In this document: positions 7,491 through 56,282 of the stretch, piece by piece
How positions within the stretch are numbered: position 1 is the stretch's first letter
Layout of the letters: every line of letters starts with the position of its first letter
NCBI RefSeq assembly: GCF_900156675.1
Contig: NZ_FTOH01000006.1
Coordinates: forward strand, 124,001-188,000
DNA: 64,000 bases
Origin: Thalassolituus maritimus
GTDB lineage: Bacteria > Pseudomonadota > Gammaproteobacteria > Pseudomonadales > Oceanobacteraceae
Direction of reading: 5' to 3'
Notes under the pieces: model-generated
What the model was told of the DNA's origin: nothing
What the model saw: the letters and a program-made list of their open reading frames with translations, nothing else
Databases searched by the model: none
Translations under genes and position numbers: made by a program

Positions 7491-7509
7491 GCGCTGCGAC
7501 GGAAATCTT

Positions 7510-29757: not shown

Positions 29758-32364
29758 ATGAGTGACTTAGCCAAAGAAGTTCTGCCAATTAATATTGAAG
29801 ACGAGCTGCAGCAGTCGTACCTTGATTATGCGATGAGCGTAATTGTAGGGCGGGCTCTGCCTGATGTCAGGGATGGCCTTAAGCCTGTACACCGCCGCGT
29901 GTTGCACGCTATGAACATTCTCGGCAATGACTGGAATAAGCCTTACAAAAAGTCTGCGCGTGTTGTTGGTGATGTGATCGGTAAATACCACCCGCACGGT
30001 GACTCTGCGGTGTATGACACCATTGTTCGGATGGCTCAGGACTTCTCTATGCGCTACACCCTGGTCGATGGTCAGGGTAACTTCGGTTCGGTGGATGGCG
30101 ACTCTGCTGCGGCGATGCGTTACACGGAAATCCGGATGGAGAAGATCAGCCATGAAATGTTGGCTGATATCGATAAAGAGACCGTTGACTGGGTACCCAA
30201 CTACGACGGTACTGAGCAGATCCCAGAAGTGCTTCCTACCCGCATCCCTAACCTGCTGGTGAATGGCTCGTCTGGTATCGCTGTTGGTATGGCGACGAAT
30301 ATCCCGCCTCATAACCTGACAGAAGTTCTGAATGGCTGTCTGGCCTTGATCGATGACCCGAATCTGACCGTCGATGATCTGATGGAATATATTCCAGGCC
30401 CGGATTTTCCAACAGCCGCATTTATTAACGGTCGCGATGGTATTGTTGAAGCGTACCGCACTGGCCGTGGACGCATTTATCTGCGTGCTCGTCATCAGTT
30501 CGAAGAGGACGAGAAAAACGGCAAAGTATCCATCGTCTTCACCGAAATCCCATACATGGTCAACAAAGCTCGCCTGATCGAGAAGATCGCCGAGCTGGTT
30601 AAAGACAAGAAAATCGAAGGCATTACCGAACTGCGCGACGAGTCGGATAAAGACGGTATGCGTATCGTCGTTGAACTGCGTCGCGGTGAAATGCCAGAAG
30701 TCGTATTGAATAACCTGTTCGCTCAGACTCAGTTGCAGGGTGTATTCGGTATTAACACCGTCGCCCTCGTCGATGGGCAGCCTAAGACTCTGAACCTTAA
30801 GCAGTTGCTTGATGCGTTTGTTAAGCACCGTCGTGAAGTTGTTACAAGACGCACAATTTATGATCTGCGCAAGGCGCGTGAACGTGGTCATATTCTCGAA
30901 GGTCTTGCTCTGGCGCTGGCGAATATTGATCCAGTGATTGAGCTGATTAAAAAGTCGCCTACCGCGGCGGAAGCGAAAGAGAGCCTGATTGCGGCGGCTT
31001 GGGCGCCAGGTGATGTGCTGGATATGCTGGAACGAGCAGGCGAAGATGCCTGTCGTCCGGATGACTTGCCAGAAGAGTACGGTTTCCGTGATGGTAAATA
31101 TCACCTTTCACCGGTTCAGGCTCAGGCAATTCTTGATCTGCGCCTGCAGAAGCTGACTGGCCTCGAGCATGAAAAACTGATTGCTGAGTATCAGCAGAAG
31201 CTTGAAGAAATTGCAGAATACCTCGAAATCCTTGGCAGTGCTGAGCGCCTGATGGAAGTGATTCGCGAAGAACTTGAGTTGATTCGTGAAGAGTATGGCG
31301 ATGAACGTCGTACTGAGATCATTGCGCAGAAACGCGATCTCACTATGGCCGACCTGATTCCGGAAGAAACTCTGGTTCTGACTTTATCCCACACCGGCTA
31401 CGCCAAGACTCAGCCAATGGATGCTTATCAGGCACAGAAGCGCGGTGGTAAAGGTAAGTCGGCGACGTCGATGAAAGACGAAGACTTCATTGAGCACCTT
31501 TTGGTTGTTAACAGTCATGATACCGTTCTCTGCTTTACCGATGCCGGTAAAGTGTATTGGTTGACGGTTTATGATATCCCTCAGGCCAGCCGCAACTCTC
31601 GCGGTCGCCCTATTGTGAATGTGCTCAATCTGTCTTCTGAAGGCGAGCGTATTACTGCAATTCTGCCGGTGGAAGAATACCGTGATGACCTGTACGTCTT
31701 TATGGCAACGGCCCGCGGTACGGTTAAGAAAACCACGCTGGATCAATTCAGTCGACCACGCTCATCAGGCCTGATTGCCTGTGAGCTGGACGAAAACGAC
31801 TGGCTGGTCGGTGTGGCTATTACTGACGGCCAGCAGGACATCCTGATGTTGAGCGATGCGGGTAAAGCAGTCCGCTTTAAAGAGTCGGATGTTCGTGCCA
31901 TGGGCCGGACCGCTCGCGGTGTGCGCGGTATCAAACTGGCGGAAGACCAGCGTGTTATCTCACTGATCGTCCCTGAGGAAAACGGTACGATTCTGACGGC
32001 ATCGCAGCGCGGCTTTGGTAAACGCACAAACGTAGAAGAGTTTCCAACGAAAGGGCGTGGTACGCAGGGCGTTATCGCTATGGTGACCAGCGAACGCAAT
32101 GGCGCTCTCGTGGGAGCGGTTCAGGTCTTCAATGGTGATGAGGTCATGCTTGTCAGTGATCGCGGCACGCTAGTGAGAACGCGTGTCGACGAAGTGTCAG
32201 TTCTGGGTCGGAATACGCAGGGTGTCACGCTCATTAAAGTCTCTGAGAAGGAGAAGCTTGTTGGTGTTGAGCGCATCTGTGATGAAGACGAAGCTGACCT
32301 TCTTGACGGAGAGCAAGTGGACTCTGCGAACGACGTTGATTCTGATGGAGAAACAGCTGAATGA
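29758..32364 (+). CDS. gyrA: DNA gyrase subunit A
   Basis: 868 aa from ATG 29758; the frame is open to 29578 but the extra 60 codons are not gyrase. The start [20 protein letters not shown] is canonical. The catalytic tyrosine is Tyr122 in AAMRYTEIR, with the same numbering as E. coli. The quinolone-determining region reads [10 protein letters not shown] with Ser83 and Asp87, the susceptible type. The C-terminal DNA-wrapping domain starts with the GyrA box [10 protein letters not shown] and has repeated beta-pinwheel blades, then an acidic tail. It overlaps wzz by four bases (ATGA) and heads a long plus-strand run. Confidence 0.98.
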
Positions 32365-33521
32365 CTGAAAATATGAGTCAGCAGTCGCATGATGACGAGA
32401 TCGACCTGTTTGATCTTATCGACGATGTTCGTGATAAATGGTACTGGCTGGTGGGTAGTCTGCTGGCTGGTATTGCACTTGCAATAGCTTATGTGATGAC
32501 GGCGACGCCCGAATACCAGACCGAGGCGACCATTACTGAAGCAGCTCCTTCGGAGTTGCTGCCTTTTAGTCAGGCAGCACTGCGAAATAGACTTACCCTT
32601 AGTGCGTCGGTTAAAGACGTGCAAAATAATGGTGTCGAAGATGAGCCTGTTAGTTTGACGGATGAGGCTGTTTTTGAATTGGATGCTGAGGCTGCTTTTT
32701 CCAGTGCGCGTTCTGTACTTCGTTCTGCGTCAACTCGTAAGGCTTTCTATAATTTTTTGCTGAGTCAGCCTGATGAAGAGTTATTGCCACTGATTTCCTC
32801 GCAAGCGCTGACGGAAGAACAGAATCTCGCTAATTTTCTTACGCGGTTCTCATTCAGCGATCCGGGGAAGGGCGATACAGACACCTACCTGACTGTAAAG
32901 TTTAAGTTGGGCAGTAATGCCGAGCTAGCGCGAGATGTTCTGAATGACTACATCGCTTACGGGCTCATTTTGCATGAGAAGCGCGTCAAAAATGAGTTCG
33001 AGCGTAAGGTTCATGCTGAACTTGAGCTATACCAGACCTGGGTTGATAACTTCCGTAGGGTCTACGAATCAGAGAAAGCGCGCCAGATAGCCCGATTGGA
33101 AGAAGCTGCTCAGATTGCTGCGAGCATCGGCCAGAAAAAACCGTTTTATAATACAAACGATGTGGTTGTCAGTAGCGAACCCCCGCTTTACATGATGGGA
33201 GAGCAAGCGCTTCGTCAGGAAGCTGAATTACTGCGCAAACGTTCAGACTCTCCATCTGAAGATATTTTTGTATCCGGCCTTTCTGTTGTTAAGAATTCGA
33301 TAGCAACTCTTGAGGGTATCGTCGTTGATTGGAACGAAGTCGAGTTGGTCGATGTGGATCAGCCTGCACTCTTGCCTTTGAAGCCAGCTAAGCCCAAAAA
33401 ACTTCTTGTCGTGGCATTGGGCGCCGTGGGTGGCGCAATGTTCGGTTTGCTGGCCGCTTTGATTGCTGCGGCCTCAGCTCGCCATTTGAGACGTAATGAA
33501 CGTAACCCTTTGCATTTTTAA
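32361..33521 (+). CDS. wzz: Wzz/chain-length determinant protein
   Basis: A 386-aa polysaccharide co-polymerase. It has a short acidic cytoplasmic N-terminus with [17 protein letters not shown] helix 1 (about 27-47), a large helical periplasmic region with coiled coil, a proline-rich [11 protein letters not shown] and TM helix 2 (about 348-370). This is the Wzz pattern. It sets the modal length of O-antigen made by Wzy; both the wzx/wzy locus and lapB lie downstream in this window. The ATG overlaps the gyrA stop, so translation is coupled; an internal ATG at 32373 is an alternative start. Finding it between gyrA and serC is unusual. Confidence 0.88.
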
Positions 33522-44024: not shown

Positions 44025-44048
44025 AAGAATTTAGTTGTGGAAAGAAAA

Positions 44049-45176
44049 ATGACGGATAAAAAAGTTGCACTCATCACCGGCGTTACCGGCCAAGACGGCT
44101 CTTACTTAGCAGAATTTCTTCTGGAAAAGGGATATGAGGTCCACGGTATCAAACGTCGTGCCTCACTGTTTAACACAGAGCGTGTTGATCACATCTATCA
44201 GGACCCGCACGAAGAAAACGTTAACTTTCACCTGCACTATGGTGACCTGACGGATACGTCTAACTTAACTCGTATTCTTCGTGAAGTTCAGCCAGATGAA
44301 GTATACAACCTGGGCGCACAGTCCCACGTTGCTGTTTCCTTTGAGTCGCCGGAATACACGGCTGACGTCGATGCTATGGGGACGCTGCGTCTGCTTGAAG
44401 CGATTCGTTTCTTAGGGCTTGAGAAGAAAACACGCTTCTATCAGGCATCCACTTCTGAGCTGTATGGTCTGGTGCAGGAAATCCCTCAGAAAGAGACCAC
44501 GCCTTTTTACCCGCGTTCTCCATACGCCGTTGCAAAAATGTACGCGTACTGGATTACCGTAAACTACCGCGAGTCATACGGTATGTACGCCTGTAACGGT
44601 ATTCTGTTTAACCACGAATCTCCACGTCGTGGCGAAACCTTCGTTACCCGTAAGATTACCCGCGCGCTGGCTAACATCTCTCAAGGTCTCGAGAAGTGTC
44701 TGTATCTTGGCAACATGGATGCGCTCCGTGACTGGGGCCATGCTAAAGACTACGTACGTATGCAATGGATGATGCTGCAGCAGGACACCGCAGAGGATTT
44801 TGTAATCGCTACGGGTAAGCAGATTTCTGTTCGTGAATTTGTTCGCCTGTCCGCTAAAGAGCTGGGTATTACACTGCGCTTCGAAGGCGAAGGTGTTGAA
44901 GAAATTGCCATTGTTGAAGCGATTGAAGGCGACAATGCTAAAGCTCTGAACGTCGGTGACACCATCGTTCGCGTTGACCCTAAATACTTCCGCCCAGCAG
45001 AAGTAGAAACCCTGCTTGGTGATCCTACCAATGCTAAGAACAAGTTGGGGTGGACGCCAGAAATCACCGTTGAAGAAATGTGCGCTGAGATGGTTCAGTC
45101 GGACCTGCAGAAAGCAAAGCAGCATGCACTCCTGAAAGAGCATGGTTTTGATGTCGCTGTTGCGATTGAAAGCTAA
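44049..45176 (+). CDS. gmd: GDP-mannose 4,6-dehydratase
   Basis: About 375 aa from ATG 44049 with GGAAAGA upstream (a GTG at 44037 is in frame). It is an extended SDR with [22 protein letters not shown], the YxxxK pair in [20 protein letters not shown], and an active-site Thr/Glu in [16 protein letters not shown]. It converts GDP-D-mannose to GDP-4-keto-6-deoxymannose, the first step to GDP-L-fucose or GDP-rhamnose. fcl follows immediately, so fucose is the product. GC-content and codon use are still like the core genome here. GDP-mannose must be made by genes outside the window. Confidence 0.97.
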
Positions 45177-45203
45177 GCCTCAGGCAAGGAGATAGATAGA
45201 GCT

Positions 45204-46163
45204 ATGAAGCGCATATTCGTTGCTGGCCACAAGGGAATGGTGGGATCAGCCATCGTTCGTCAGTTGTCAGAGCAAACAGACGTTGAGCTGATTGTGCGAG
45301 ACCGCATTCAGCTCAATCTTCTGAATCAGGCAGAGGTCCAGGCATTCTTTGAAAAAGAGAATATTGACCAAGTATATTTGGCTGCGGCTAAGGTAGGGGG
45401 CATTATTGCCAATAATACCTATCCAGCGGAGTTCATATACGAAAACCTCATGATCGAATGCAATATCATTCAATCAGCGCACCTGGCGGGAGTGAATGAT
45501 CTGTTGTTCCTGGGGTCATCCTGTATCTATCCTAAGTTGGCCGAGCAGCCAATGTCCGAGAGCGCGTTGCTTACTGGCACTCTGGAGCCGACCAACGAAC
45601 CGTACGCAATCGCCAAGATTGCTGGTATTAAACTCTGCGAAAGCTACAACCGTCAGTATGGTCGTAACTACCGTAGCGTGATGCCAACGAACCTGTACGG
45701 TGAAAACGATAACTTCCACCCGGATAACTCCCACGTTATTCCTGCGTTAATGCGTCGCTTTCATGAAGCCAAGCTCAATGATGTGCCCGAAGTCGTGGTG
45801 TGGGGCACTGGCAAACCAATGCGAGAGTTTTTGCACGTGGACGATATGGCTGCGGCCAGTATCTTTGTGGCGAACGTGAGTGATGAAATCTATCAGTCAT
45901 GCACTGAGCCTATGCTGTCGCATATTAATGTGGGTACGGGTGTGGACTGCACTATCTCTGAGATGGCACACACCATGGCCGAGGTGGTTGGGTATAAAGG
46001 TAAAATTACCTTTGATACGACCAAGCCCGATGGTGCACCGCGCAAACTGATGAATGTGGATACGCTTAAGAAACTGGGTTGGACGTACAATATCGAGCTG
46101 AAAGAAGGTTTAGCCAGTACGTATGAGTGGTTTTTAGAGCATCAGGATGATTTTCGCGAATAG
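45204..46163 (+). CDS. fcl: GDP-L-fucose synthase
   Basis: A 319-aa SDR. It has the GxxGxxG motif [39 protein letters not shown], and [19 protein letters not shown]. The catalytic Tyr and Lys are in [15 protein letters not shown], followed by [20 protein letters not shown]. It epimerises and reduces GDP-4-keto-6-deoxymannose to GDP-L-fucose with NADPH. It follows gmd by 27 bases. The 200-base gap after it marks the start of the AT-rich block. Confidence 0.97.
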
Positions 46164-46363
46164 TTCAACGCAAGCCCTGTCATGTTTTTGAATATTCTAT
46201 TTTGAACAATTTTTGTAGGGTTGCGGGCATCGGAGCAGCTTGGAAATCTTCGGTGTATTGCGTGGCTTTAACCAAACGCTAGTTTCGAATACTAAAGCCT
46301 GATAAAGGGTGGCATAACCAAAGCTCAGCGTACCTTTTATCAATGATTGCACAAGGCTAAGAT
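46164..46363. other. 200-base non-coding gap at the entry of the AT-rich O-antigen block
   Basis: No supported gene. GGCTTTA (46264-46270) and TAAAGCC (46293-46299) form an inverted repeat enclosing a smaller AAAC/GTTT one. No convincing promoter was found. Base composition drops from here on. Confidence 0.5.
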
Positions 46364-46981
46364 ATGGATACTGTAGACAGGATATTTTTAGGCTTACGAA
46401 AGATAGTTGCGAATACTGTGAACAGTGTTGTAAATATATTTCGTAAGGACGTGCTAGTAGAATCCTCTGCAGTACATCGTAGCGTTGTTATTGGTACGGG
46501 ATCACAAGTTAAGGTTGGTACCGCAATTGACCCGGCGAGTACTATAGGTTCATACGTATACATCGGGAAATATTGTAACGTGACCAGAGCTAACATCGGT
46601 TCCTATGTCTCAATTGCTAATGGTGTATCAATTGGTCAGGGTGAGCATGATATTACAAGAATAAGCACAAATTCGTTATTCTATGAGAGTGCTTATGATG
46701 AGCTGACAAAGGAAGACCTCATCATCGAGGAGGATGTATGGATTGGGGCTGATTCTATTGTATTGAGAGGTGTTGTTATTGGGCGAGGAGCTGTAATCGG
46801 TGCTAATAGTGTTGTTACTAAAAGTGTTCCTCGTTATGCCGTCGTTGTAGGGGCTCCTGCTAGGGTAATTAAATACCGGTTCTCAAATGATCGTATCGCT
46901 AGTATTGAAAAATCTGAATGGTGGACCTATAGCCCAACGGACGCTAGATTAATATTTAAAAGAATTACTGAAAATGTATAA
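46364..46981 (+). CDS. Hexapeptide-repeat (left-handed beta-helix) acetyltransferase, probable O-antigen O-acetyltransferase
   Basis: A 205-aa protein. After a variable N-terminus, the middle carries hexapeptide repeats of the [LIV]-G-x4 type (IGSYVYIGKYCNVTRANIGSYVSIANGVSIG). A typical CatB/xenobiotic acyltransferase end follows: EEDVWIGADSIVLRGVVIGRGAVIGANSVVTKSVPRYAVVVGAPARVIKYRF. Such enzymes use acetyl-CoA to acetylate sugars. Its position, overlapping the GT10 gene by 8 bases, suggests it decorates an O-unit sugar, perhaps fucose. Codon use is AT-rich. Confidence 0.82.
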   Translation: MDTVDRIFLGLRKIVANTVNSVVNIFRKDVLVESSAVHRSVVIGTGSQVKVGTAIDPASTIGSYVYIGKYCNVTRANIGSYVSIANGVSIGQGEHDITRISTNSLFYESAYDELTKEDLIIEEDVWIGADSIVLRGVVIGRGAVIGANSVVTKSVPRYAVVVGAPARVIKYRFSNDRIASIEKSEWWTYSPTDARLIFKRITENV

Positions 46982-47987
46982 AAAGGCTAGTTTGGTAGTT
47001 GATTACCATCTGAATAATAAAATATTTGACATTAATGACTGTGCGGTCAATAGGGATGACTATGGCTATTCCATATGGCTCTTAAAAGAGAGATTAAAAG
47101 CGAAAGGATATGAGCTTTCAACTTGTGATATTAATCGGCCTTCAGATTCTGAACTGGTAATATACTTTGACTACCCGGCAACGGGAATTGAAAATCCTTC
47201 AGCTATAAACATATTATGTCTTTTTGAAAATGAAATAATAAAACCAGAAAATACGCCGTCACCCGTTTTTGATCAGTTTGATTATGTGTTTTCTTGGAAC
47301 GACGACTATCTAGAGAAGCGTAATTTCAGGAAGTTTAATTATACTCACAAACTGAATCGCCCATACAACTTCAGAAATTACCCCGGCTTCACTGATAGAA
47401 AGCTATGTACTTTGATTTCAGCAAATAAGATGACTGAACATCCTCGGGAACTTTATTCTGAGAGACTGAAGGCTATAGCTTGGTTTGAGAACAATGCAGC
47501 GGAAGATTTCGATTTGTATGGAGTTGGTTGGGATCAATTTCCTAACGACGGTAGATTGAGAAGTAGAGTATTGAATAAACTAGCTCCATTTACTAATTTT
47601 ATGAAGAAGTCATATCCCTCTTATAAGGGTATGGTTGAATCAAAAAATCAAACTTTAAGAAATTATCGGTACAGTATTTGTTTCGAGAATGCCTCGGGAT
47701 ATCCGGGTTATATATCAGAGAAGTTATTTGATTCTCTAATGGCTGGTTGTGTTCCCATTTATTATGGTGCGCCGAATGTGGCTGATTACATTCCGGAGGG
47801 TTGTTACATAGATTTTAGAGATTTCACTTCATATCATGATTTATATGATTATCTTATCGTGGCTTCATCAGATGAATTCTACAGTCGTCAGCGTGAAATC
47901 GAGAGCTTCTTGAATTCGGAAAGGTCTAGTCCGTTTGAGGCTCAGCGGCTACCTGAGCTGATACTCAAATGCTTGGAGGAGCACTAG
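46974..47987 (+). CDS. Glycosyltransferase family 10 (alpha-1,3/1,4-fucosyltransferase)
   Basis: 337 aa. The C-terminal half has the GT10 signature: YRYSICFENASGYPGYISEKLFDSLMAGCVPIYYGAPNV at about 231-269, ending YIPEGCYIDFRDF. This matches the GDP-fucose-binding motif of bacterial and animal alpha-1,3/4-fucosyltransferases such as Helicobacter FutA. It transfers L-fucose from GDP-Fuc, which gmd and fcl in this locus can supply, to a GlcNAc or similar residue of the O-unit. No membrane segment, hence cytosolic or peripheral. It overlaps the acetyltransferase by 8 bases and abuts the GT11 gene (TAGTG). Confidence 0.88.
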   Translation: MYKKASLVVDYHLNNKIFDINDCAVNRDDYGYSIWLLKERLKAKGYELSTCDINRPSDSELVIYFDYPATGIENPSAINILCLFENEIIKPENTPSPVFDQFDYVFSWNDDYLEKRNFRKFNYTHKLNRPYNFRNYPGFTDRKLCTLISANKMTEHPRELYSERLKAIAWFENNAAEDFDLYGVGWDQFPNDGRLRSRVLNKLAPFTNFMKKSYPSYKGMVESKNQTLRNYRYSICFENASGYPGYISEKLFDSLMAGCVPIYYGAPNVADYIPEGCYIDFRDFTSYHDLYDYLIVASSDEFYSRQREIESFLNSERSSPFEAQRLPELILKCLEEH

Positions 47988-48844
47988 TGATTACTATTAA
48001 ACTCAATGGAGGGTTGGGAAATCAACTATTTCAGTATTCAGTAGGAAGAGCTCTTTCCCTTAAATACGACGTTCCATTAAGAATTGACGCTTCATTGTAC
48101 CAATTCTATGACGTTCATCCTTTTAGACTTAGTAGTTATTCAATTGGTGGCAGCTTATATAGTAGACCAGGAAAACTATATAAGATTATTAATAGTATTA
48201 AGGTACAATCTAATCTTAAGAAACTTAACCTGAGGAAGAATGTTTATATTGAAGAATCAATTGAATATGACCCTGGTGTTATATCAATGGGCGCGGATGC
48301 GGTTCTGTATGGGTACTTTCAATCAGAGAAATACTTCTCATCAATAAGGGATGTTTTACTCAAAGACCTTCAGATCGGTCAGCTTCAGAAAGAATGTTGT
48401 GGGCATATTGTTAACGAAATAGTTGGTCAGGAATCTGCATCATTGCATGTTCGCAGAGGTGACTATGTTACAAATGGTGAAGCTAATAAGGTACATGGCC
48501 TATGTGGTTTGAATTATATATATGAATCAGTATCTATAATTCGAAATCGAGTTGGTAACTCCCATTTAAGAATATTTGTTTTTTCTGATGATATTGAATG
48601 GTGTCGGAATAATATTGAATTGGATAATGTATTTTTTGTGGAGGGGAATGATACATCACCTGAAGTAGACCTGTACCTAATGAGCCTTTGTAGTCACAAT
48701 ATAATCGCAAATAGTACGTTCAGTTGGTGGGGGGCATGGTTAAATCAGAACTCCAAAAAAATAGTCATATGCCCAAGGCAATGGTTCAGAAGTAACTCCC
48801 TTAGTGATAGAGATATAGTTCCCGACAGCTGGCTTAGGTTATGA
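47987..48844 (+). CDS. Glycosyltransferase family 11 (alpha-1,2-fucosyltransferase)
   Basis: 285 aa from GTG 47987, whose G is the last base of the GT10 stop; GGAGGA lies six bases before. It has the GT11 opening KLNGGLGNQLFQYSVGRAL and the GDP-fucose motif HVRRGDY (residues 154-160). SFSSDD-like FVFSDDIEWC and NSTFSWWGAWLN follow. Enzymes such as E. coli WbsJ and Helicobacter FutC form Fuc-alpha-1,2-Gal linkages. It overlaps the wzx start (ATGA). The gene is strongly AT-rich. Confidence 0.92.
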   Translation: MITIKLNGGLGNQLFQYSVGRALSLKYDVPLRIDASLYQFYDVHPFRLSSYSIGGSLYSRPGKLYKIINSIKVQSNLKKLNLRKNVYIEESIEYDPGVISMGADAVLYGYFQSEKYFSSIRDVLLKDLQIGQLQKECCGHIVNEIVGQESASLHVRRGDYVTNGEANKVHGLCGLNYIYESVSIIRNRVGNSHLRIFVFSDDIEWCRNNIELDNVFFVEGNDTSPEVDLYLMSLCSHNIIANSTFSWWGAWLNQNSKKIVICPRQWFRSNSLSDRDIVPDSWLRL

Positions 48845-50274
48845 GCTTAAATTTTAATAGAATAGATCGTGACCTGCTAATAGTTGCAACAGGAAAAATA
48901 ATACAGATAATGGTCGCGTTTGTCGCTCTCAGGCTTCTGACGTATCAGTTGGATGTTTCAGAAGTAGGGCGGTATTACATACTACTATCGCTGCTCACAT
49001 TCGTTAATTTTCTATTTTTAAATGGGGTAGGTCAGTACTATAATCGTTTCTTATATAATTACAAAGATGCTGGTAGTTTGGCCTCTGCCACAAAAGCACT
49101 TTTCTTAGCTCGCACTATCTTGATTTTAGTTGCGACGACTGTCATGCTTCCGTTTTTCTTTCTTTCAGAAATATCCAAGAATTTTAGTTTTTATTACTTT
49201 TTTCCTGTTATCTTACTTTCACTTTTTGCGGGCACTGCATTAGCTTTTATCAATGCGGTGAATATATTGAAGTTTCGGGTTGCTTTTGTTGGTTACACTG
49301 TTGTTTATTCTGTTGCTGGCGTAGCGCTGGCTTTTACTTTTACAGAAGCTACTGAGCTTGGTGCTATAGGTTGGTTAATTGGAATATCTATTGGCCAGCT
49401 GTCTGTCCTGTATTTTTCTTATAATAAGTTAATTATAATGACGGAATCAGGTGTTAGTCTCAAAGGTTTCTTGATGGGCGTAGACTTTAAAGGTCTTATT
49501 GCCTTTGTTATTCCTATATCTCTGGTTCTGCTACTTCAATGGGTGAATAATAGCTCTTTTCGGTTGCTTATTGCGGAGTCATATAGTCTTGAAGTTGTTG
49601 CTGGTGTGTCTGTCGCCTTCGCTGTCTCTGCTTCCATTTTTAATGCCTTCGAAGGTTTTCTCACTCAGTACTATTTACCTGGTTACTATAGTAGTATTTC
49701 AGCAGCGGATCGTGAAGTGCGTTTACTGCATACGAATTCTATAATTTCAAAACTTTTAGGATACTACTTTTTATTATTTGGCTTTATAGTGTTTTTTAGC
49801 GACTACATACTTATATTGCTAGTAGACAGTAAATTCCATCATCTTGGCTTATATCTAAAGATTGCTGCCGGGTTTGAATTATTTAGGGCCTCGTCGAATG
49901 TCATTTATTTAGTATCGCAATCCGAGGTTAATACAAAGGGTGCAATATTTCCTTATGCTGCCGGTGCTGCTGCTTTAGTTTTCTCACTAAGTATCTTTAA
50001 TTTTCAATCAGAAATGTTTTTTGTTCCGCTAATAGTGTTCTTATCATCATTGTTGGTTTTTATATTGTTATTTTTAAGTATGAGAAAGTTGCTACCGATA
50101 GTGTTTCCTTGGAAATCGTTGATGCGATCGCTAATATTGGTGATGCCACTGAGTGTTACGCTCTTACTGGAAATTCGCTATGAGTTGTTATGGGTGATAT
50201 TTCTTTCTTTAGCTGGTTCGGTTTATTTTCTGTTTTCTCTTTTAATATTATATCGAGAGGATTCTAGCGGATGA
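48841..50274 (+). CDS. wzx: O-antigen flippase (Wzx-type)
   Basis: A 477-aa polytopic protein with about 12 predicted helices. It begins LNFNRIDRDLLIVATGKIIQIMVAFVALRLL, typical of the polysaccharide-export branch of the MATE/MOP superfamily. It is weakly conserved, as Wzx proteins are. It would flip undecaprenyl-linked O-units to the periplasm. It overlaps the GT11 gene (ATGA) and lies 26 bases before the wzy candidate. The order and topology make the assignment good, although no motif is decisive. Confidence 0.82.
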   Translation: MSLNFNRIDRDLLIVATGKIIQIMVAFVALRLLTYQLDVSEVGRYYILLSLLTFVNFLFLNGVGQYYNRFLYNYKDAGSLASATKALFLARTILILVATTVMLPFFFLSEISKNFSFYYFFPVILLSLFAGTALAFINAVNILKFRVAFVGYTVVYSVAGVALAFTFTEATELGAIGWLIGISIGQLSVLYFSYNKLIIMTESGVSLKGFLMGVDFKGLIAFVIPISLVLLLQWVNNSSFRLLIAESYSLEVVAGVSVAFAVSASIFNAFEGFLTQYYLPGYYSSISAADREVRLLHTNSIISKLLGYYFLLFGFIVFFSDYILILLVDSKFHHLGLYLKIAAGFELFRASSNVIYLVSQSEVNTKGAIFPYAAGAAALVFSLSIFNFQSEMFFVPLIVFLSSLLVFILLFLSMRKLLPIVFPWKSLMRSLILVMPLSVTLLLEIRYELLWVIFLSLAGSVYFLFSLLILYREDSSG

Positions 50275-50300
50275 TCAGACGATTTTTACTGGATTAGTAC

Positions 50301-51386
50301 ATGGAATATTTTTCGATTCTTTTCTTTGTCATATTATTTTCAGTACTCTCGATATTCAAGAGACGTAATGCAATCTATTTTTTTCCTATTGTTTTATGCT
50401 TGGTTGTTTTTTCTGGTACTAGGTACCAGACAGGTAATGACTGGATGGGCTATCAGCAGGTTTTTGATGCGCAAATATCGTCTAGAGCGGGCATATTTGA
50501 TACGTCTGGGCGAATGGAAATAGGGTATTTAGTAGTAAACAATATAGTTGTTTCTGTTGGAGGAGAATTGTGGTGGATATTTTTTATATTCGCTTTAATG
50601 AATGTGTTTCTTTTCTATAAAGGATTTTTGATTTATACGCCGTTTGTATCAGTTGCTTTGCTATTGTACTTGAGATTTAGTTACTTACAGCTTGATTTTA
50701 TGTTCCTACGGCAGGGATTAGCGATAGCGATATTCTTCTATGCGTTAAAGTATATAGTGGAGAAGAGAGCGAAACTTTACTTTATATTGATATTATTAGC
50801 TTGTTTTTTTCATATCAGTGCAGTCGTTCTTTTTCCTTTGTATTTTCTTCTTAATCGTCATTTTAGTTTGAAGTTTTTGTGGACTTTGGCTTTGACTTCG
50901 TTGATTCTAGGAATGTCTCCATGGATGGAGTATCTATTCTCTATTATTGAGGCACCGCTTAAGGTAATAGGTTTGGCCTCCCCAATCAAATCTTATCTAT
51001 TTGGAGATACCTGGGCTGACCAGGGCCGTGGGTTTAGTATATCTATTGTTGAAAAGGTTTTTGTACTTGTATTTTTCTCTTGTTATATAAATTACTTCAA
51101 TAGAAGATTTAATTACTTTTCAATATTCTTCAATCTAGGGTTTCTTGCCCTGCTTACTAGTTTGATTTTTATGAACTATTATGTTTTCTCTGAACGTCTT
51201 GTTATTATTTTTAATGTGGCATATATCATTTTGATATCCTACACTATGTCAATACTTTCACCTTATACTAGGGTTTTCGCACTGATGGCGATCGCATCTT
51301 ATGTGTCCTTCTGGTGGATTAGATACATCTTAACAAGTGATGTTTACTTACCCTATAATAGTATTATTTATACCGGTGGTTTATGA
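50301..51386 (+). CDS. wzy: O-antigen polymerase (Wzy, EpsG-type)
   Basis: A 361-aa membrane protein with about 10-11 helices. An early loop carries FSGTRYQTGNDWMGYQQVF, the EpsG-family motif (GTR...GxDW-xxY), and a YLQLDFMFLRQGLAIAIFF helix follows. EpsG/Wzy proteins polymerise O-units on undecaprenyl diphosphate in the periplasm. It is the only polymerase candidate in the locus, placed between wzx and the GT2 genes. Wzz, encoded after gyrA, would set its chain length. Confidence 0.82.
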   Translation: MEYFSILFFVILFSVLSIFKRRNAIYFFPIVLCLVVFSGTRYQTGNDWMGYQQVFDAQISSRAGIFDTSGRMEIGYLVVNNIVVSVGGELWWIFFIFALMNVFLFYKGFLIYTPFVSVALLLYLRFSYLQLDFMFLRQGLAIAIFFYALKYIVEKRAKLYFILILLACFFHISAVVLFPLYFLLNRHFSLKFLWTLALTSLILGMSPWMEYLFSIIEAPLKVIGLASPIKSYLFGDTWADQGRGFSISIVEKVFVLVFFSCYINYFNRRFNYFSIFFNLGFLALLTSLIFMNYYVFSERLVIIFNVAYIILISYTMSILSPYTRVFALMAIASYVSFWWIRYILTSDVYLPYNSIIYTGGL

Positions 51387-52222
51387 GTGTGTCTGTTATA
51401 CTCCCTGTCTATAATGGTGGGAAGTATCTATGTCAAGCCGTTGAAAGTATATTAAGTCAAACTTACAGAGATATTGAATTAATCTGTATAGATGATGGTT
51501 CTACTGACGGCTCTCTTGCCGTTCTCGAGTCATTTAATGATATACGTATGAAGGTTATATCTAGGGAAAATAGAGGTTTGATCGCTACATTGAACGAAGG
51601 AATACAGCTTGCCAAATATCGGTATATCGCGAGAATGGATGCTGATGATGTATCACTGCCAGATCGACTGGAGAAGCAAATTAAGCATATGAAGCGTCGC
51701 AGGCTTGCTGTTGTTGGAAGTAGCTATGAGTATATAGACTCAGATAGTGTAGTCTTGGGACGTAGAGTTGTACCTGGGAGCAGAGTGTTCACGAAGTACC
51801 TCTTAGATTTCGGTGCGTCCCTTTGTCACCCGTCTGTAGTTTTTGATCGAGAACTGCTCGGTGAAGATCTGTATTATTCTAAGGACGCTATCGCCTGTGA
51901 GGATTATGAGCTTTGGCTCAGGCTATCTAATTTAGGGAAGCCTATGGGTAACGTTAAAGAGGTTTTACTAAGGTATCGTGTATTAGATAGTAGTATCTCA
52001 AGAATGTTGTCCGAAAAGCAAAAGAATGGGAAGGTAACTTTATTGTTAGGTGAGTCGTCATATATAAAAAGCTTTTCTGACGCCGAGTATATGCTTGGAG
52101 AAAGTGGCTCGGGTGCTAGTATCGGTTTGCTTAGAAAATTATCATTGTCCATATCTGCATTCCGATGTCACGGGCCACTCAGAGCTTTATTTGTATTGAC
52201 GTATCTAGTAATTCGGAGGTAA
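51383..52222 (+). CDS. GT2 family glycosyltransferase
   Basis: A 279-aa GT-A enzyme. It opens SVILPVYNGGKYLCQAVESILSQTY, with the nucleotide site IDDGSTDGS and the DxD-type metal motif RMDADDVSLPDRL. These are classical inverting GT2 features. The sugar donor is unknown. It overlaps wzy (ATGA). A C-terminal region around residue 265 is hydrophobic and may attach it to the membrane. Confidence 0.86.
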   Translation: MSVSVILPVYNGGKYLCQAVESILSQTYRDIELICIDDGSTDGSLAVLESFNDIRMKVISRENRGLIATLNEGIQLAKYRYIARMDADDVSLPDRLEKQIKHMKRRRLAVVGSSYEYIDSDSVVLGRRVVPGSRVFTKYLLDFGASLCHPSVVFDRELLGEDLYYSKDAIACEDYELWLRLSNLGKPMGNVKEVLLRYRVLDSSISRMLSEKQKNGKVTLLLGESSYIKSFSDAEYMLGESGSGASIGLLRKLSLSISAFRCHGPLRALFVLTYLVIRR

Positions 52223-52229
52223 ACATTCT

Positions 52230-53015
52230 TTGGCTTCTATAGACTTTTTATTTTCTACTTTTGAAGAGAGAATTGATGGATTATTGAAGAACCTTCCGGG
52301 ATTCTGTTCAAATCGAAATATTATAATCGTCCATCAAACTCAGGATCCCAATAGTTTTCGGTACGTTAAAGAATATTTGTCTGATAGAGATGATGTTCAA
52401 TATATTCAACAGAATGAATATGGAGTTACAAAAAGTAGAAATCTAGCAATTAAATATTCATCTTCGGACTATGTTTTATTTTGTGACGATGACGTCGTAT
52501 ACGAAGATAATGTCACTAGTATTCTTCTTCGCAGTATGGTCGGGTGTGACGCCTGTACTTTCAGAATATCGTCAACCGCTGAGGGCTATACTAAAGACTT
52601 TAAAAATTATGAATTTACTCATAGTAGGTTTTCTATTTTATCGGTTGGTACTATTGAAATTGCATGTGATAGAGCATTCTTGATTAAATATGAAATTTTG
52701 TTTCCAGAGGAGTTGGGAGCAGGAGCTAAGTACCCAAGTTGTGATGAACCTGTTTTCCTTTCTAAAATTCTCGCTAATGGAGGAGTCTTAAAATACAAAC
52801 CTGTGACAATATGTTCGCATCCTCCCATTAGCAGCGGGATCAAGATTGACACATTTGAATCATTGTTATCCAGAGCTATTGCTTTTAAATATATTTTTGG
52901 TAGCAGAGTTTATATTGCGGTATTTGTTTTATTCTGGATTAAAAATATTCGACGCATAGACGCGAAATTGGCATTATATGTCCTTCTAAAAATTTTTAGA
53001 GGTAAACTACTTTAA
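52230..53015 (+). CDS. Atypical GT2-like glycosyltransferase
   Basis: 261 aa from TTG 52230, with GGAGGT nine bases upstream. The GT-A core is recognisable: YGVTKSRNLAIKYSSSDYVLFCDDDVVYE supplies the donor-binding helix and a DDD metal motif. The N-terminus lacks the usual PxYN start of GT2. A late ELGAGAKYPSCDEPVFLSKIL segment matches the [ED]xxED-like acceptor region. It is probably a rhamnosyl- or other sugar transferase, unassigned. It is the last plus-strand gene of the block; its end overlaps the convergent GT2 gene by 9 bases. Confidence 0.7.
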   Translation: MASIDFLFSTFEERIDGLLKNLPGFCSNRNIIIVHQTQDPNSFRYVKEYLSDRDDVQYIQQNEYGVTKSRNLAIKYSSSDYVLFCDDDVVYEDNVTSILLRSMVGCDACTFRISSTAEGYTKDFKNYEFTHSRFSILSVGTIEIACDRAFLIKYEILFPEELGAGAKYPSCDEPVFLSKILANGGVLKYKPVTICSHPPISSGIKIDTFESLLSRAIAFKYIFGSRVYIAVFVLFWIKNIRRIDAKLALYVLLKIFRGKLL

Positions 53016-53765
53016 TTTTTTTATTAATCCATGAACAGAATACTTTAACATTCGGCTTAAACTTTGTTTTTTCGAAAGGCCTACGGTTTTTGTATATAAG
53101 TCCCACTGTGCTCTCGCTGCTGAAAGCTTGTTTTTTGTCATCCCTGTATCTGTTCGGTAGTAGGCTAGGCTTTCAGTGATGCAGTACGCACGATCTATGT
53201 GTGTCAGTAGAGTTAACCACAATGCCATATCTTGACGCATCCTAATCGTCGGCATGTAATGTTTGCCAAGTATATATTGGTCATATACCGCCGTGAGGCA
53301 CCCTATGCAGTTTGAGTCCAATAATTTGTCATAAGTAACGATAGGAGGAGCTTTTACTACTGAACCGTATTTCTCTGATGTAAACTTTTGGTAGTAAGTA
53401 TATGTAAAGGCGTAGTTGTACTGCTGCATAATACTTATTTGTTTTGATAGCTTTTCCTTCCCCCAAAGATCATCCGAGTCAAGAAATGCTATATAGCGCC
53501 CGGTGGCACGAGCAATGCTGTTGTTTCTTGATACCCCTGCTCCGTAATTTTTTTTCGATACGGCAAGTTTAATTCGCGGATCTTCGAAGTTGGCTATTAG
53601 CTGCGTGGTATTATCGCTGGAAGCATCGTCGGTAATTAACAGTTCCCAGTTTTGATAAGTTTGGTTGATTACGGATCTTACAGATTCTTCAATTGTGCTG
53701 GATGCGTTGTAGGTTGGCATTATGATAGATACAAGCTCTTCACCCTTTGTTACCGTGAGGCTCAT
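53007..53765 (-). CDS. GT2 family glycosyltransferase (minus-strand O-antigen unit)
   Basis: 252 aa from ATG 53765, which overlaps the stop of the upstream transferase gene (ATGA). It has a standard GT2 core: VSIIMPTYNASSTIEESVRSVINQTY, ITDDASSDNTTQLI, YGAGVSRNNSIARATGRYIAFLDSDDLW, and a late RQDMALWLTLL. It most likely adds the second sugar of the O-unit to the product of the neighbouring initiating transferase. The frame extends upstream, but without GT sequence. It converges on the plus-strand block with a 9-base overlap of the coding ends. Confidence 0.87.
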   Translation of the reverse strand: MSLTVTKGEELVSIIMPTYNASSTIEESVRSVINQTYQNWELLITDDASSDNTTQLIANFEDPRIKLAVSKKNYGAGVSRNNSIARATGRYIAFLDSDDLWGKEKLSKQISIMQQYNYAFTYTYYQKFTSEKYGSVVKAPPIVTYDKLLDSNCIGCLTAVYDQYILGKHYMPTIRMRQDMALWLTLLTHIDRAYCITESLAYYRTDTGMTKNKLSAARAQWDLYTKTVGLSKKQSLSRMLKYSVHGLIKKLK

Positions 53766-55048
53766 CTGGCACCAAACCCGGTCAACATCGTCTTTATCGT
53801 CTTGAAGACGATGTCTAGGTCCAGCCAAATGCTTAGGTTTTTTACATAGTAAAAATCGTGAGCAAGTTTTTCCCGTGTCTCGTCTTCATCGGCAGCGTAG
53901 CCATGTGTGACTTGTGCCCATCCTGTGATCCCGGGGCGGACGATGTGTCGGAAGCTGTAGAGTGGAATAACTTTTTCAAATTCCTTAACGAAAGCAGCCT
54001 GCTCCGGGCGCGGGCCAATCAGGGCCATATCGCCTTTGAGAATATTCAGGAACTGCGGCAGCTCATCAATCCGCATTTTTCGTATAAATTTACCTATACG
54101 TGTAATTCGTGGGTCATCCTCGCCCGCGAACTGAGCACCGTTCGCTTCAGAATCAGTACGCATACTACGGATTTTATACATGCTGAACTCACGACCACCT
54201 TTGCCTACTCTACGCTGTACAAAGAAGGCTGGCCCCTTTGATTCTAACTTTACCGCTATGGCTACTATGATGATGAAAGGCACGGTAACAGGTGAAGTGG
54301 CTAGTATGAGAGACGACTCAAGCAAACGCTTCGCAGTCAGGTAAGCTTGCGAGGGCAGGAGCTCATGTCCTGCAAGCTCGCCGTAGTGGTCGAGAGGGCT
54401 TTTTCCTGAAATTGATTCGTAGGCAGCTACTGAATCCATTACGGGAGTGTCTTTTGAGAGCTCTTCTGCAATGAATTGCTGCCATTCTGCAGGCAGCTGC
54501 TCATTGCTATCCACAATGATGCCGATCGTGTCAGGGGCGGTAAACGATGGCTTTTCAAGTGCATAGAACTTGGATGGATTCAGCCTGATTAATTCCTGGT
54601 AGAACCCAAATGGAATAACTGCATAGCGTCCAGTTTGCAAGTGCTGTCTGAGCTTGAATTCGGAATATGTAACGATTGGAACTACACACAAGGACAGAAG
54701 TAAAACTGAGCGTGAATAATCGATGCGCGTGAATATGATAACTGCAGTAATAGATAGCAGAGAAACCGTAAGCACCGGGATCATATAAGACAGCGGTCTA
54801 TTCCCGGGGAATCTGCCCAGGTTATGGAGAGTAACGCTCGAAATAAGATAGCCTATCAGTGATCCAAACAGCACGTTCAGAAACTGAGGTGCTTTTAGAT
54901 TTAATCCGGTAAAGAGGGCTGAACCCGATGTGATAAGCGAAGCACAAATAAATAGCCCGAGAAGGACGGTAGTGCTGTGTATCAGGAAAGATTTTCGAGA
55001 GAGTGACGCTGGCTGCAGGGAGCTGTCAATCGCGTGTCCTTGTACCAT
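53762..55048 (-). CDS. Initiating sugar-phosphate transferase (polyprenyl glycosylphosphotransferase, WcaJ/WbaP type)
   Basis: 428 aa from ATG 55048. There are four to five hydrophobic helices in the N-terminal half, a soluble middle with a Rossmann-like part, and a further helix at about 255-275. The conserved bacterial sugar transferase domain follows: VQRRVGKGGREFSMYKIRSMR, RITRIGKFIRKMRIDELPQ, NILKGDMALIGPRPEQ, RPGITGWAQV. It transfers a hexose-1-phosphate to undecaprenyl phosphate, starting the O-unit; the exact sugar cannot be told. The frame reads back into the tRNA, but the matching start is only 24 bases beyond the tRNA 3' end. Confidence 0.9.
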   Translation of the reverse strand: MVQGHAIDSSLQPASLSRKSFLIHSTTVLLGLFICASLITSGSALFTGLNLKAPQFLNVLFGSLIGYLISSVTLHNLGRFPGNRPLSYMIPVLTVSLLSITAVIIFTRIDYSRSVLLLSLCVVPIVTYSEFKLRQHLQTGRYAVIPFGFYQELIRLNPSKFYALEKPSFTAPDTIGIIVDSNEQLPAEWQQFIAEELSKDTPVMDSVAAYESISGKSPLDHYGELAGHELLPSQAYLTAKRLLESSLILATSPVTVPFIIIVAIAVKLESKGPAFFVQRRVGKGGREFSMYKIRSMRTDSEANGAQFAGEDDPRITRIGKFIRKMRIDELPQFLNILKGDMALIGPRPEQAAFVKEFEKVIPLYSFRHIVRPGITGWAQVTHGYAADEDETREKLAHDFYYVKNLSIWLDLDIVFKTIKTMLTGFGAR

Positions 55049-55071
55049 GCCGCCGACCTTGGAAAAAGAAG

Positions 55072-55147
55072 TGGCTCCCCGAGCTGGACTTGAACCAGCG
55101 ACCAATAGATTAACAGTCTACTGCTCTACCGACTGAGCTATCGGGGA
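55072..55147 (-). tRNA. tRNA-Asn (GTT)
   Basis: A 76-base cloverleaf on the minus strand, with the CCA encoded (55072-55074). The acceptor stem is TCCCCGA/TCGGGGA, the D arm GCTCAGTCGGTAGAGC, the anticodon loop CTGTTAA (anticodon GTT, positions within ACTGTTAATCT), and the T arm GCTGGTTCAAGTCCAGC. It lies just upstream of the initiating transferase gene. I recall a tRNA-Asn at the same border of the Pseudomonas aeruginosa O-antigen locus. Confidence 0.97.
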
Positions 55148-55232: not shown

Positions 55233-56282
55233 TTACGACTCAGAGTATCCGTTAGGGTTGGAGCTCTGCCAGTGCCAGGTGTCTTTTACCATTGCGGCGA
55301 TGTCGAGCTCAGTTTCCCATTGAAGTATCTGCTTCGCCTTGGTCGCGTTTGCATAGCATGCTGCGACGTCTCCTGGGCGACGTGGGGCTATTTCGTACGG
55401 TACGGGCGTGTCGTTGACTTCAGAGAATGTGTTCACAAGTTGCAGCACGCTGGTGCCATTGCCTGTGCCCAGATTAATCGCTTCTACGCCAGTTACAGCT
55501 TTACTACTGAGTAAGTTGTCAACGGCTTTCAAGTGACCCTTTGCAAGATCCACGACGTGAATGTAATCACGTACTCCTGTGCCGTCTATGGTGTCGTAGT
55601 CGTCGCCAAACACCGAGAGCTTTTCTCTTCTGCCGACCGCGACCTGCGAAATGTAAGGCATCAGATTGTTGGGAATGTCTTTCGGGTCTTCGCCAATTAA
55701 CCCCGATTTATGTGCTCCGACAGGGTTGAAGTACCTGAGCAGAATAACGGCCCATGGTTGTTCAGTTTCTGTGAGGCGGTCGGCTTCAGGCAGATCGCGG
55801 AGCATCTCTTCAATAATGAGCTTAGAGCGTCCATAAGGGTTGGTCGCCGACAAGGGCATGTCTTCCGTTAATGGAAGCTTTTCTGGATCGCCATACACGG
55901 TTGCAGAGGAGCTGAAGACCAGGTTTTTTACACCGGCTTTCTCCATTTCCTGGCATAGAGTGATAGTGCTACCGAGGTTGTTGTCATAGTATGCCAATGG
56001 CATCTGGCAGCTTTCCCCAACGGCCTTCAGGCCAGCGAAGTGAATGACTGCCGCAATGCTGTGTTGGCTGAAGATACTTGCTAACAACGCTGGATCACGG
56101 ACATCACCTTCAATGAAAACAGGCGCTGTTCCGGTGATTTTTTCTACACGATTGAGGGCTTCAGGTGAACTATTACTCAGGTTGTCGATCACGACCACAT
56201 TGTAGCCGGCTTCGATCAGTTCAACGCAGGTGTGGCTTCCAATATAGCCAGCGCCACCGGTGACCAGAATTGTTTTACTCAT
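55233..56282 (-). CDS. galE: UDP-glucose 4-epimerase
   Basis: A 349-aa extended SDR. It has the NAD motif VTGGAGYIGSHTCVELIEAG, FAGLKAVGES, the Ser in FSSSATVYG, and catalytic Tyr/Lys in NPYGRSKLIIEEML, then PVGAHKSGLIGEDP. It interconverts UDP-glucose and UDP-galactose. Beside the O-antigen locus, it could supply UDP-Gal or UDP-GalNAc as the acceptor-sugar donor for the fucosyltransferases. It lies upstream of the tRNA-Asn promoter on the same strand and 1 base from dcd. Confidence 0.95.
   Translation of the reverse strand: MSKTILVTGGAGYIGSHTCVELIEAGYNVVVIDNLSNSSPEALNRVEKITGTAPVFIEGDVRDPALLASIFSQHSIAAVIHFAGLKAVGESCQMPLAYYDNNLGSTITLCQEMEKAGVKNLVFSSSATVYGDPEKLPLTEDMPLSATNPYGRSKLIIEEMLRDLPEADRLTETEQPWAVILLRYFNPVGAHKSGLIGEDPKDIPNNLMPYISQVAVGRREKLSVFGDDYDTIDGTGVRDYIHVVDLAKGHLKAVDNLLSSKAVTGVEAINLGTGNGTSVLQLVNTFSEVNDTPVPYEIAPRRPGDVAACYANATKAKQILQWETELDIAAMVKDTWHWQSSNPNGYSES

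Follow-up and report, generated by a model that had tools for sequence, protein, structure and literature searches.

Adjacent GT10 and GT11 fucosyltransferase-family genes in a probable Wzx/Wzy-type O-antigen locus of Thalassolituus maritimus

Helicobacter pylori builds Lewis x/y lipopolysaccharide (LPS) with FucT (GT10) and FutC (GT11) (excerpt of PMC4202792), and WbwK, WbiQ and WbsJ of Escherichia coli O86/O127/O128 are described as GT11 alpha-1,2-fucosyltransferases of O-antigens (excerpt of PMC4202792). Among colitose O-antigens, the O139 unit of Vibrio cholerae consists of six sugars that include Gal, GlcNAc and two colitoses (excerpt of PMC8386440), and E. coli O55 WbgN uses GDP-colitose and tolerates GDP-fucose (excerpt of PMC12723683). 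The window analysed here, a stretch of 64,000 nucleotides from T. maritimus, has both transferase families and probably the fucose donor in common with H. pylori; however, its GT10 and GT11 genes abut in a single Wzx/Wzy locus together with the donor genes. It resembles the E. coli O86/O127/O128 O-antigens in using the GT11 family. These E. coli loci presumably also contain gmd and fcl, and we know of no GT10 gene in them. What sets the window apart from the colitose O-antigens (E. coli O55 WbgN, V. cholerae O139 and A. trota) is its full-scoring Fcl together with the lack of ColD.

All genes named in the first-pass annotation were located at 44049-53015 by ORF inspection of the window. Two loci were syntenic with it, namely G003 (same genus) and G041 (taken as the Oceanospirillaceae MAG SAT97, PAJK01000003), the latter sharing family group f1 with the window genome. 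The features are as follows.

32361..33521, + strand: Wzz-like chain-length determinant, lying some 10.5 kb upstream of gmd; PF02706 39.7 bits (cut-off 25.5)
44037..45176, + strand: gmd, GDP-mannose 4,6-dehydratase; TIGR01472 equivalog 584.9 bits (cut-off 415); possible start ATG 44049
45204..46163, + strand: fcl, GDP-L-fucose synthase; NF047922 equivalog 543.6 bits (cut-off 500)
46364..46981, + strand: hexapeptide (LbH) acyltransferase, putative O-acetyltransferase; PF00132 55.9 bits (cut-off 27)
46974..47987, + strand: GT10 fucosyltransferase-family protein; PF00852 50.4 bits (cut-off 23.9)
47160..53780, no strand: exchanged antigen cassette relative to G003, from identity in 60-base steps
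47969..48844, + strand: GT11 fucosyltransferase-family protein; PF01531 129.9 bits (cut-off 23.9); start ATG 47969 or GTG 47987
48841..50274, + strand: Wzx-like flippase; 36-40% identity to the syntenic proteins of G003 and G041
50301..51386, + strand: EpsG-family Wzy-type polymerase; PF14897 156 bits
51383..52222, + strand: GT2 glycosyltransferase a; PF00535 123.1 bits
52230..53015, + strand: GT2 glycosyltransferase b; PF00535 43.9 bits
53007..53765, - strand: GT2 glycosyltransferase c; PF00535 117.5 bits for ORF 53007-53828, listed from TTG 53828; likely start ATG 53765 (checked)
53762..55105, - strand: WbaP/WcaJ-type polyprenyl-phosphate hexose-1-phosphate transferase; PF02397 219.6 bits, TIGR03025 296.7 bits (cut-off 295.55); the listed TTG falls within the tRNA and the true start lies further inside the ORF
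55072..55147, - strand: tRNA-Asn (ARAGORN), right edge of the locus
55233..56282, - strand: galE, conserved flank; TIGR01179 443.2 bits (cut-off 262.3)

The locus extends beyond 53015, with a minus-strand GT2 gene and a Bac_transf initiating transferase. Allowing up to two mismatches, a search of the entire window for an ops/JUMPStart element gave 16 matches where 13.4 were expected; the 2.6 kb before gmd had none, and this candidate was rejected.

Profile matches identified a starter transferase, glycosyltransferases, Wzy and the distant Wzz. The O-antigen-type locus of the first-pass annotation is supported, and the locus is probably of the Wzx/Wzy O-antigen type. The window Wzx-like protein had no Pfam match, nor was one found for the G041 protein, and the G003 homologue passed PF13440 narrowly (23.6 bits, cut-off 23). 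We consider it likely that this O-antigen-type (possibly capsule or exopolysaccharide) locus directs a unit with two L-fucose residues, one from GT10 and one from GT11. The WbaP/WcaJ-type enzyme would put the first hexose phosphate onto undecaprenyl phosphate, and the three GT2 enzymes would then extend the chain. GT10 and GT11 would contribute one L-fucose apiece from the GDP-L-fucose made by Gmd and Fcl, as branch or terminal residues. The possible O-acetylation suggested earlier is supported by the hexapeptide-repeat protein, which may modify the unit; none of the best 25 of 50 NCBIfam matches reached its cut-off, so none assigns it a substrate. In this predicted order, Wzx would flip the unit, the EpsG-type Wzy would polymerise it and Wzz would set the chain length, and a ligase encoded elsewhere would join the polymer to lipid A-core, attaching it to LPS. 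Two Wzy_C proteins elsewhere in the genome are candidate ligases (WaaL). Given that WaaL is a candidate only, and that the polymerase is EpsG-type and the starter EPS_sugtrans-type, the product could instead be an exopolysaccharide or capsule. We regard this as somewhat unlikely, since visual inspection of the listed ORFs around the locus revealed neither Wza nor Wzc, a Wzz-like gene is present, albeit 10.5 kb away, and an export gene of the autokinase type (eps_fam 154.3 bits, cut-off 108.05) lies in a separate cluster on contig C25.

The GDP-L-fucose route read from gmd and fcl was borne out, as both products exceeded their equivalog cut-offs (TIGR01472 and NF047922). The route to GDP-mannose is completed elsewhere in the genome by a phosphomannomutase-family gene and a bifunctional GMP/PMI gene (TIGR01479 705.5 bits, cut-off 372.95, in a profile search of the own genome), so that all genes sought for GDP-L-fucose synthesis were found. 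Of 17 Fcl-type proteins scored with NF047922, nine passed the cut-off of 500, including those of the window and its syntenic relatives; three scored about 451-475, and the remaining five, all beside a His-type ColD, scored 304-323. A score of this kind is not enough to dismiss colitose, because locus L004 combines an Fcl-like protein of 460 bits with a His-type ColD.

ColD-type PLP 3-dehydratases are marked by His in place of Lys. ColD was absent from the locus, and a His-type ColD was not found among the three matches in the own genome, of which the two full DegT proteins carry Lys. A GDP-colitose pathway was thus not recovered in the own genome. His was present in six ColD-type proteins from relatives. 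The full-scoring Fcl and the lack of ColD among the genome's matches point to GDP-L-fucose as the donor.

The GT10 assignment held, with PF00852 matching residues 221-304, a span that includes the motif placed earlier at 231-269, and covering 86 of 182 profile positions. A phmmer search against the PDB (E <= 0.1) returned five distinct sequences, all named fucosyltransferases, the best being 2nzw (E=1.1e-12, 51.2 bits), which we take to be the H. pylori enzyme. E85, E238, E249 and K250 occurred in 55/55 aligned rows and N239 in 52/55, with one gene (G689; L120 and L143) counted twice here and in the tree. In a further likeness to H. pylori, the conserved Glu and Lys (E249, K250) and N239 align with 2nzw E249, K250 and N240, as counted by hand, and E85 would be the equivalent of H. 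pylori E95 through a local E-N motif, so that all four residues would have counterparts. N240 and K250 presumably have catalytic/GDP-binding roles. Such roles are described for E95 and E249 (excerpt of PMC4202792).

The GT10 tree used 56 of 58 unique rows, after removal of a row of 777 aa and another of 35 bits; L172 (42.7 bits) was additionally dropped from the residue counts. According to context labels set by hand from locus neighbourhoods, the 15-row clade holding the window comprises five rows in colitose-type loci, four in fcl loci and six with neither nearby or an unreadable context. The labels of L136 (Fcl, despite 450.9 bits) and L004 (Col, despite its Fcl-like protein) are unsure; L134, which was labelled neither, has a His-type dehydratase at a distance of about 6 kb, and the 3.6-kb contig of L166 offers no context that could be read. 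The two nearest rows beyond the three sister loci sit in colitose-type loci, and L004, L059 and L132, which hold near relatives of the window GT10, carry GT10 and GT11 genes at most 1.5 kb apart in colitose-type loci. Neither family therefore guarantees fucose. No ancestral donor is claimed, because the donor labels showed no significant clustering on the tree, with values as low in 135 and 155 of 500 shuffles. The five colitose-type rows against four fcl rows in this clade would fit transfer of another GDP-L-deoxyhexose such as colitose by GT10 and GT11, the sugar then not being fucose. This is nevertheless very improbable, as Fcl exceeds the curated cut-off and ColD was not found in the locus or among the three matches in the own genome, with Lys rather than His in both full DegT proteins.

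The GT11 assignment was likewise upheld by the PF01531 match and by the motif HVRRGDY, which occurs together with FSDDIEW and NSTFSWWGAWL. The patterns HxRRGDY, FSDDIxW and NSTFSWWxAWL were invariant in a three-row alignment (A2), and the HxRRxD motif corresponds to H154, R156, R157 and D159, numbered from the GTG start. No PDB relative was found by sequence. The GT11 tree used 36 of 43 unique rows, the seven below 150 bits being dropped, and its bootstrap had not settled. As originally noted, two fucosyltransferase-family genes of different families lie back to back. Both are open, and they overlap or abut in one run. A second gmd/fcl pair on contig C25 adjoins another polysaccharide cluster, and GDP-fucose may therefore also, or mainly, serve another polymer. 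One transferase might accordingly be inactive in vivo or act on a core or protein glycan, leaving an O-unit with one fucose or none. We consider this quite unlikely, given that the two open genes share one run and that the pair is kept in 3/3 syntenic loci, although their GT11 proteins are just 51-53% identical.

If both transferases use fucose, their linkages are not settled by family. Both family assignments stood. Membership of GT11 is no guarantee of the alpha-1,2 linkage named in the first-pass annotation, since HhFT2 of H. hepaticus is a GT11 enzyme making an alpha-1,3 linkage (excerpt of PMC4202792). The families fix neither donor nor linkage. Lewis or H structures would require Gal-beta-1,3/4-GlcNAc acceptors, and no feature of the locus points to the identity of the acceptors. 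Among the ORFs and profile matches within the locus, no further nucleotide-sugar pathway could be recognised, which makes a backbone of common hexoses/hexosamines plausible and would accommodate Lewis- or H-type fucosylated structures; moreover, H. pylori builds Lewis b and y with GT10 and GT11 enzymes (excerpt of PMC4202792). Such structures are still unlikely in our judgement: no gene identifies a Gal-beta-GlcNAc disaccharide, and the acceptor, even the linkage, varies among GT11 enzymes (excerpt of PMC4202792). The best PDB matches of the GT2 proteins (chondroitin synthase for a and c; 'putative glycosyltransferase GalT1', 4.6e-5, for b) leave specificity unfixed and were uninformative about acceptors. 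The galE gene reported nearby is present beyond the tRNA-Asn, and its orthologues flank the locus in G003, G041, G005 and G004; it is weak evidence for Gal, because relatives whose loci differ in their interior (G005 and G004) have this flank as well.

The first-pass annotation had called such a locus unexpected in a probable free-living marine bacterium, which was overstated. GT10 occurred in 23/369 and GT11 in 18/369 genomes of the class, and both together in 11/398 genomes of the phylum against 1.4 expected, in samples that were taxonomic, not marine; marine fucosyltransferase activity was already reported in 2012 (PMC4103564). The pair is real yet recurs in other bacteria; it adds one more case to an arrangement already known and does not prove Lewis antigens of the human type. 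The genus name was absent among the matches listed in a literature search on Thalassolituus LPS and fucose. Syntenic GT10-GT11 loci were present in 3/44 genomes of the family, the only three with GT10.

The G003 and SAT97 loci share the window's order gmd-fcl-LbH-GT10-GT11-wzx-wzy-GT2-GT2-(GT2-starter). Their glycosyltransferases are 51-65% identical to those of the window, with GT10 reaching 77% to G003, whereas the window Wzy is 29% identical to both and those of G003 and G041 share 57.5%. At 47160, identity to G003 dropped from 97% to 75%, and at 53780 it climbed from 58% to 93% (60-base steps), the interior forming an exchangeable cassette with edges near these positions; further right, identity was lower again at 53900-54079 (78-85%) and at 54620-54739 (80-88%). 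As a speculative and rather doubtful proposal, GT10 and GT11 might form a repeatedly assembled module placing two L-deoxyhexoses on neighbouring O-unit sugars (Lewis b/y-like geometry), with the donor switching between colitose and fucose by ColD/ColC-Fcl exchange; in this genome the decorated unit would also have acquired a different polymerase and with it, for one and the same repeat, a new serotype. If so, Lewis-like difucosyl (and dicolitosyl) surface chemistry could arise in the absence of any vertebrate host, a reason for not taking such epitopes by default as host mimicry. With corresponding transferase sets and different Wzy, the three syntenic loci amount to natural variants on which a change of serotype driven by the polymerase could be tested cleanly, and the enzymes could serve as tools for fucosylated oligosaccharide synthesis. 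SAT97 differs from the window in having a manC-type gene (TIGR01479 688.8 bits) between fcl and LbH, an LbH gene divided between two reading frames and, from pyrF to gmd, about 2.9 kb of extra sequence.

The ORFs and profile matches bore out the genes named by the first-pass annotation: gmd, fcl, an acyltransferase, adjacent GT10 and GT11 genes, and galE nearby. galE lies past a tRNA-Asn gene, itself beyond the initiating transferase.

Gene order of the locus (window coordinates)
44037-45176, +, gmd
45204-46163, +, fcl
46364-46981, +, hexapeptide acyltransferase (LbH)
46974-47987, +, GT10 (Pfam 50.4 bits, cut-off 23.9)
47969-48844, +, GT11 (Pfam 129.9 bits, cut-off 23.9)
48841-50274, +, Wzx-like protein
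50301-51386, +, EpsG-type Wzy
51383-52222, +, GT2 (GT2a)
52230-53015, +, GT2 (GT2b)
53007-53765, opposite strand to the gmd–GT2b run, GT2 (GT2c)
53762-55105, opposite strand to the gmd–GT2b run, Bac_transf initiating transferase (starter)

The longest starter ORF opens within the tRNA-Asn gene (together they span 53762-55147); the true start is probably inside this ORF (that of a surveyed genome, G004, opens MVQGHAIDSSL).

Both fucosyltransferase family assignments held, as the two proteins exceeded the Pfam curated cut-offs; no NCBIfam model matched either at E ≤ 0.001. Among PDB sequences, all distinct matches to GT10 (5/5, E ≤ 0.1) and to its profile (5/5, E ≤ 0.001) were named fucosyltransferase. 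GT11 had no PDB match at E ≤ 1, and the sole match of a three-row GT11 profile, a ferritin (E = 0.22), was taken for chance. The GT10 alignment comprised 55 of 58 unique rows (two left out for score and one for length; one gene occurs twice), in which E85, E238, E249 and K250 were invariant (55/55) and N239 was kept in 52/55. E249, K250 and N239 aligned with E249, K250 and N240 of 2nzw, which we take to be the H. pylori GT10 enzyme. PMC4202792 describes two glutamates of that H. pylori protein, Glu95 and Glu249, as catalytic; window E85 would be the counterpart of Glu95. The GT11 protein carries the motifs HVRRGDY, FSDDIEW and NSTFSWWGAWL; PMC4202792 calls the first Arg of HxRRxD critical in WbsJ.

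Against the equivalog model for GDP-fucose synthase, whose cut-off is 500, the window Fcl scored 543.6 bits. Relatives supplied the important control: in five other GT10 loci (L059, L061, L132, L135 and L153), the Fcl homologue scored just 304–323 bits and adjoined a ColD-like protein. These ColD-like proteins and that of locus L004 all (6/6) have SHH at the position of the Lys in the PseC aminotransferase, a His replacement that we presume to mark a 3-dehydratase. The four scanned (L004, L059, L061 and L132) best matched RfbH in NCBIfam, at 266–276 bits, below the cut-off of 423. All six are apparent GDP-colitose-type loci, and in three (L059, L132 and L004) GT11 lies within 1.5 kb of GT10. 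On this reading, GT10 and GT11 alone do not imply fucose. Among 17 Fcl-type proteins scored, nine exceeded the cut-off, three (L004, L136 and L149) reached 451–475 bits and five 304–323; L004 has ColD despite its score of 460. The Wzx proteins of L061, L132 and L135 are homologous to that of the window.

A ColD query of the window's genome matched three places, and both full DegT proteins have Lys, not His; one is PseC (566.6 bits, cut-off 423.5). On contig C25 of this genome, a second gmd/fcl pair (L081:5843-8023; 93% DNA and 98.7/97.5% protein identity to the window pair) adjoins genes for a bifunctional GMP/PMI and a phosphomannomutase-family protein, and another polysaccharide cluster. GDP-L-fucose is thus the likely donor of the window locus, given the Fcl score, the Lys-type DegT proteins and the GDP-mannose-route genes on C25; it may also feed another polymer. 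Overall, the original observation was confirmed, with its interpretation only partly supported.

Published work places colitose in polysaccharides of V. cholerae O139 and A. trota (PMC3210612), with two colitoses per O139 hexasaccharide (PMC8386440). FUT2 and WbgN are each described as transferring both fucose and colitose (PMC11987014), and WbgN as tolerating GDP-fucose (PMC12723683). Of two marine isolates with reported fucosyltransferase activity (PMC4103564), one was weakly active and the second, Polaribacter-like by 16S, stained with AAL, a fucose lectin; UEA-I stained neither. The open-licence papers found on GT10/GT11 with O-antigen, and on the locus genes with Lewis, described no such locus for this family in the portions seen.

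In the family sample (44 genomes), GT10 occurred in three and GT11 in four, and the two were adjacent in 3/3 GT10-bearing genomes: the window's, a same-genus relative (G003) and G041, taken to be the Oceanospirillaceae MAG SAT97; the three loci are syntenic. Identities (%, window–G003/window–SAT97/G003–SAT97) were 77/60/59 for GT10, 53/51/51 for GT11, 55/54/54 for GT2a, 54/53/54 for GT2b, 63/61/65 for GT2c, 36/40/41 for wzx, but 29/29/57.5 for wzy. All three Wzy proteins belong to the EpsG family; by phmmer, the window Wzy matched its G003 counterpart at 34.6 bits and the one from a Cohnella locus at 28.9. A corresponding transferase set thus appears coupled to a different Wzy in the window. 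Gain of another wzy making a different linkage is known in Salmonella O:4 (PMC6712391). Outside the exchanged part, G003 is nearly identical (gmd 98.9%, starter 98.4%, LbH 99.0%); DNA identity falls at 47160, within GT10, and returns at 53780, with some dips beyond. G004 has the same starter (94%) and a different interior, as read from ORFs in a stretch that stops before the gmd/fcl positions. Genome G005 has gmd, fcl, the starter, one GT2 and a distant GT11 (30%), and lacks GT10. The starter was matched at ≥ 80% in 4/9 genus genomes, the window's own included, and GC was 0.34–0.41 for LbH to GT2c versus 0.48–0.52 for flanking genes. Judged from these comparisons, the locus is an ordinary exchangeable antigen locus. 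The SAT97 LbH gene (L003:9423-9987) is broken across two frames, by a real change or an assembly error.

The GT10–GT11 pair is uncommon, not exceptional. In the class sample (369 genomes), GT10 occurred in 23 and GT11 in 18 (17 above cut-off), with both in five versus 1.1 expected, close together in three (the window's genome, G051 and G336) and on separate contigs in two. The phylum sample (398 genomes, overlapping the class sample) had GT10 in 25 (23 above cut-off) and GT11 in 23 (21 above), with both in 11 versus 1.4 expected (hypergeometric P = 5e-9, inflated by relatedness); spacing was ≤ 3 kb in six, about 10.6 kb in one, and distant or on separate contigs in four. Two of the 11, both among the six close pairs (G689 and G759), have GT10 below the Pfam cut-off; without them, the count is nine versus 1.2 expected by the same formula. 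The window's 15-row GT10 clade has GT11 within 1.5 kb in seven rows, colitose-type loci in five and fcl loci in four. Seven changes of the pairing label are required on the GT11 tree, at least five of them forced by supported branches and losses possibly among them; the pair therefore looks to have been assembled more than once. This recurrence, the colitose control, the divergent polymerase and the recombination edges are the useful additions.

Other surface-sugar genes were observed in the window's genome. Contig C25 encodes PseB (538.6 bits) and PseC of a pseudaminic-acid-type pathway (L080:3016-5180), both above cut-offs, and their neighbours look alike by eye. On contig C8, two proteins (L065:2977-4062 and 7253-8272) match alpha-2,8-polysialyltransferase PF07388 at 47.9 and 43.1 bits (cut-off 23.3); a Wzy_C gene lies nearby, as does a small, weakly kinase-like gene.
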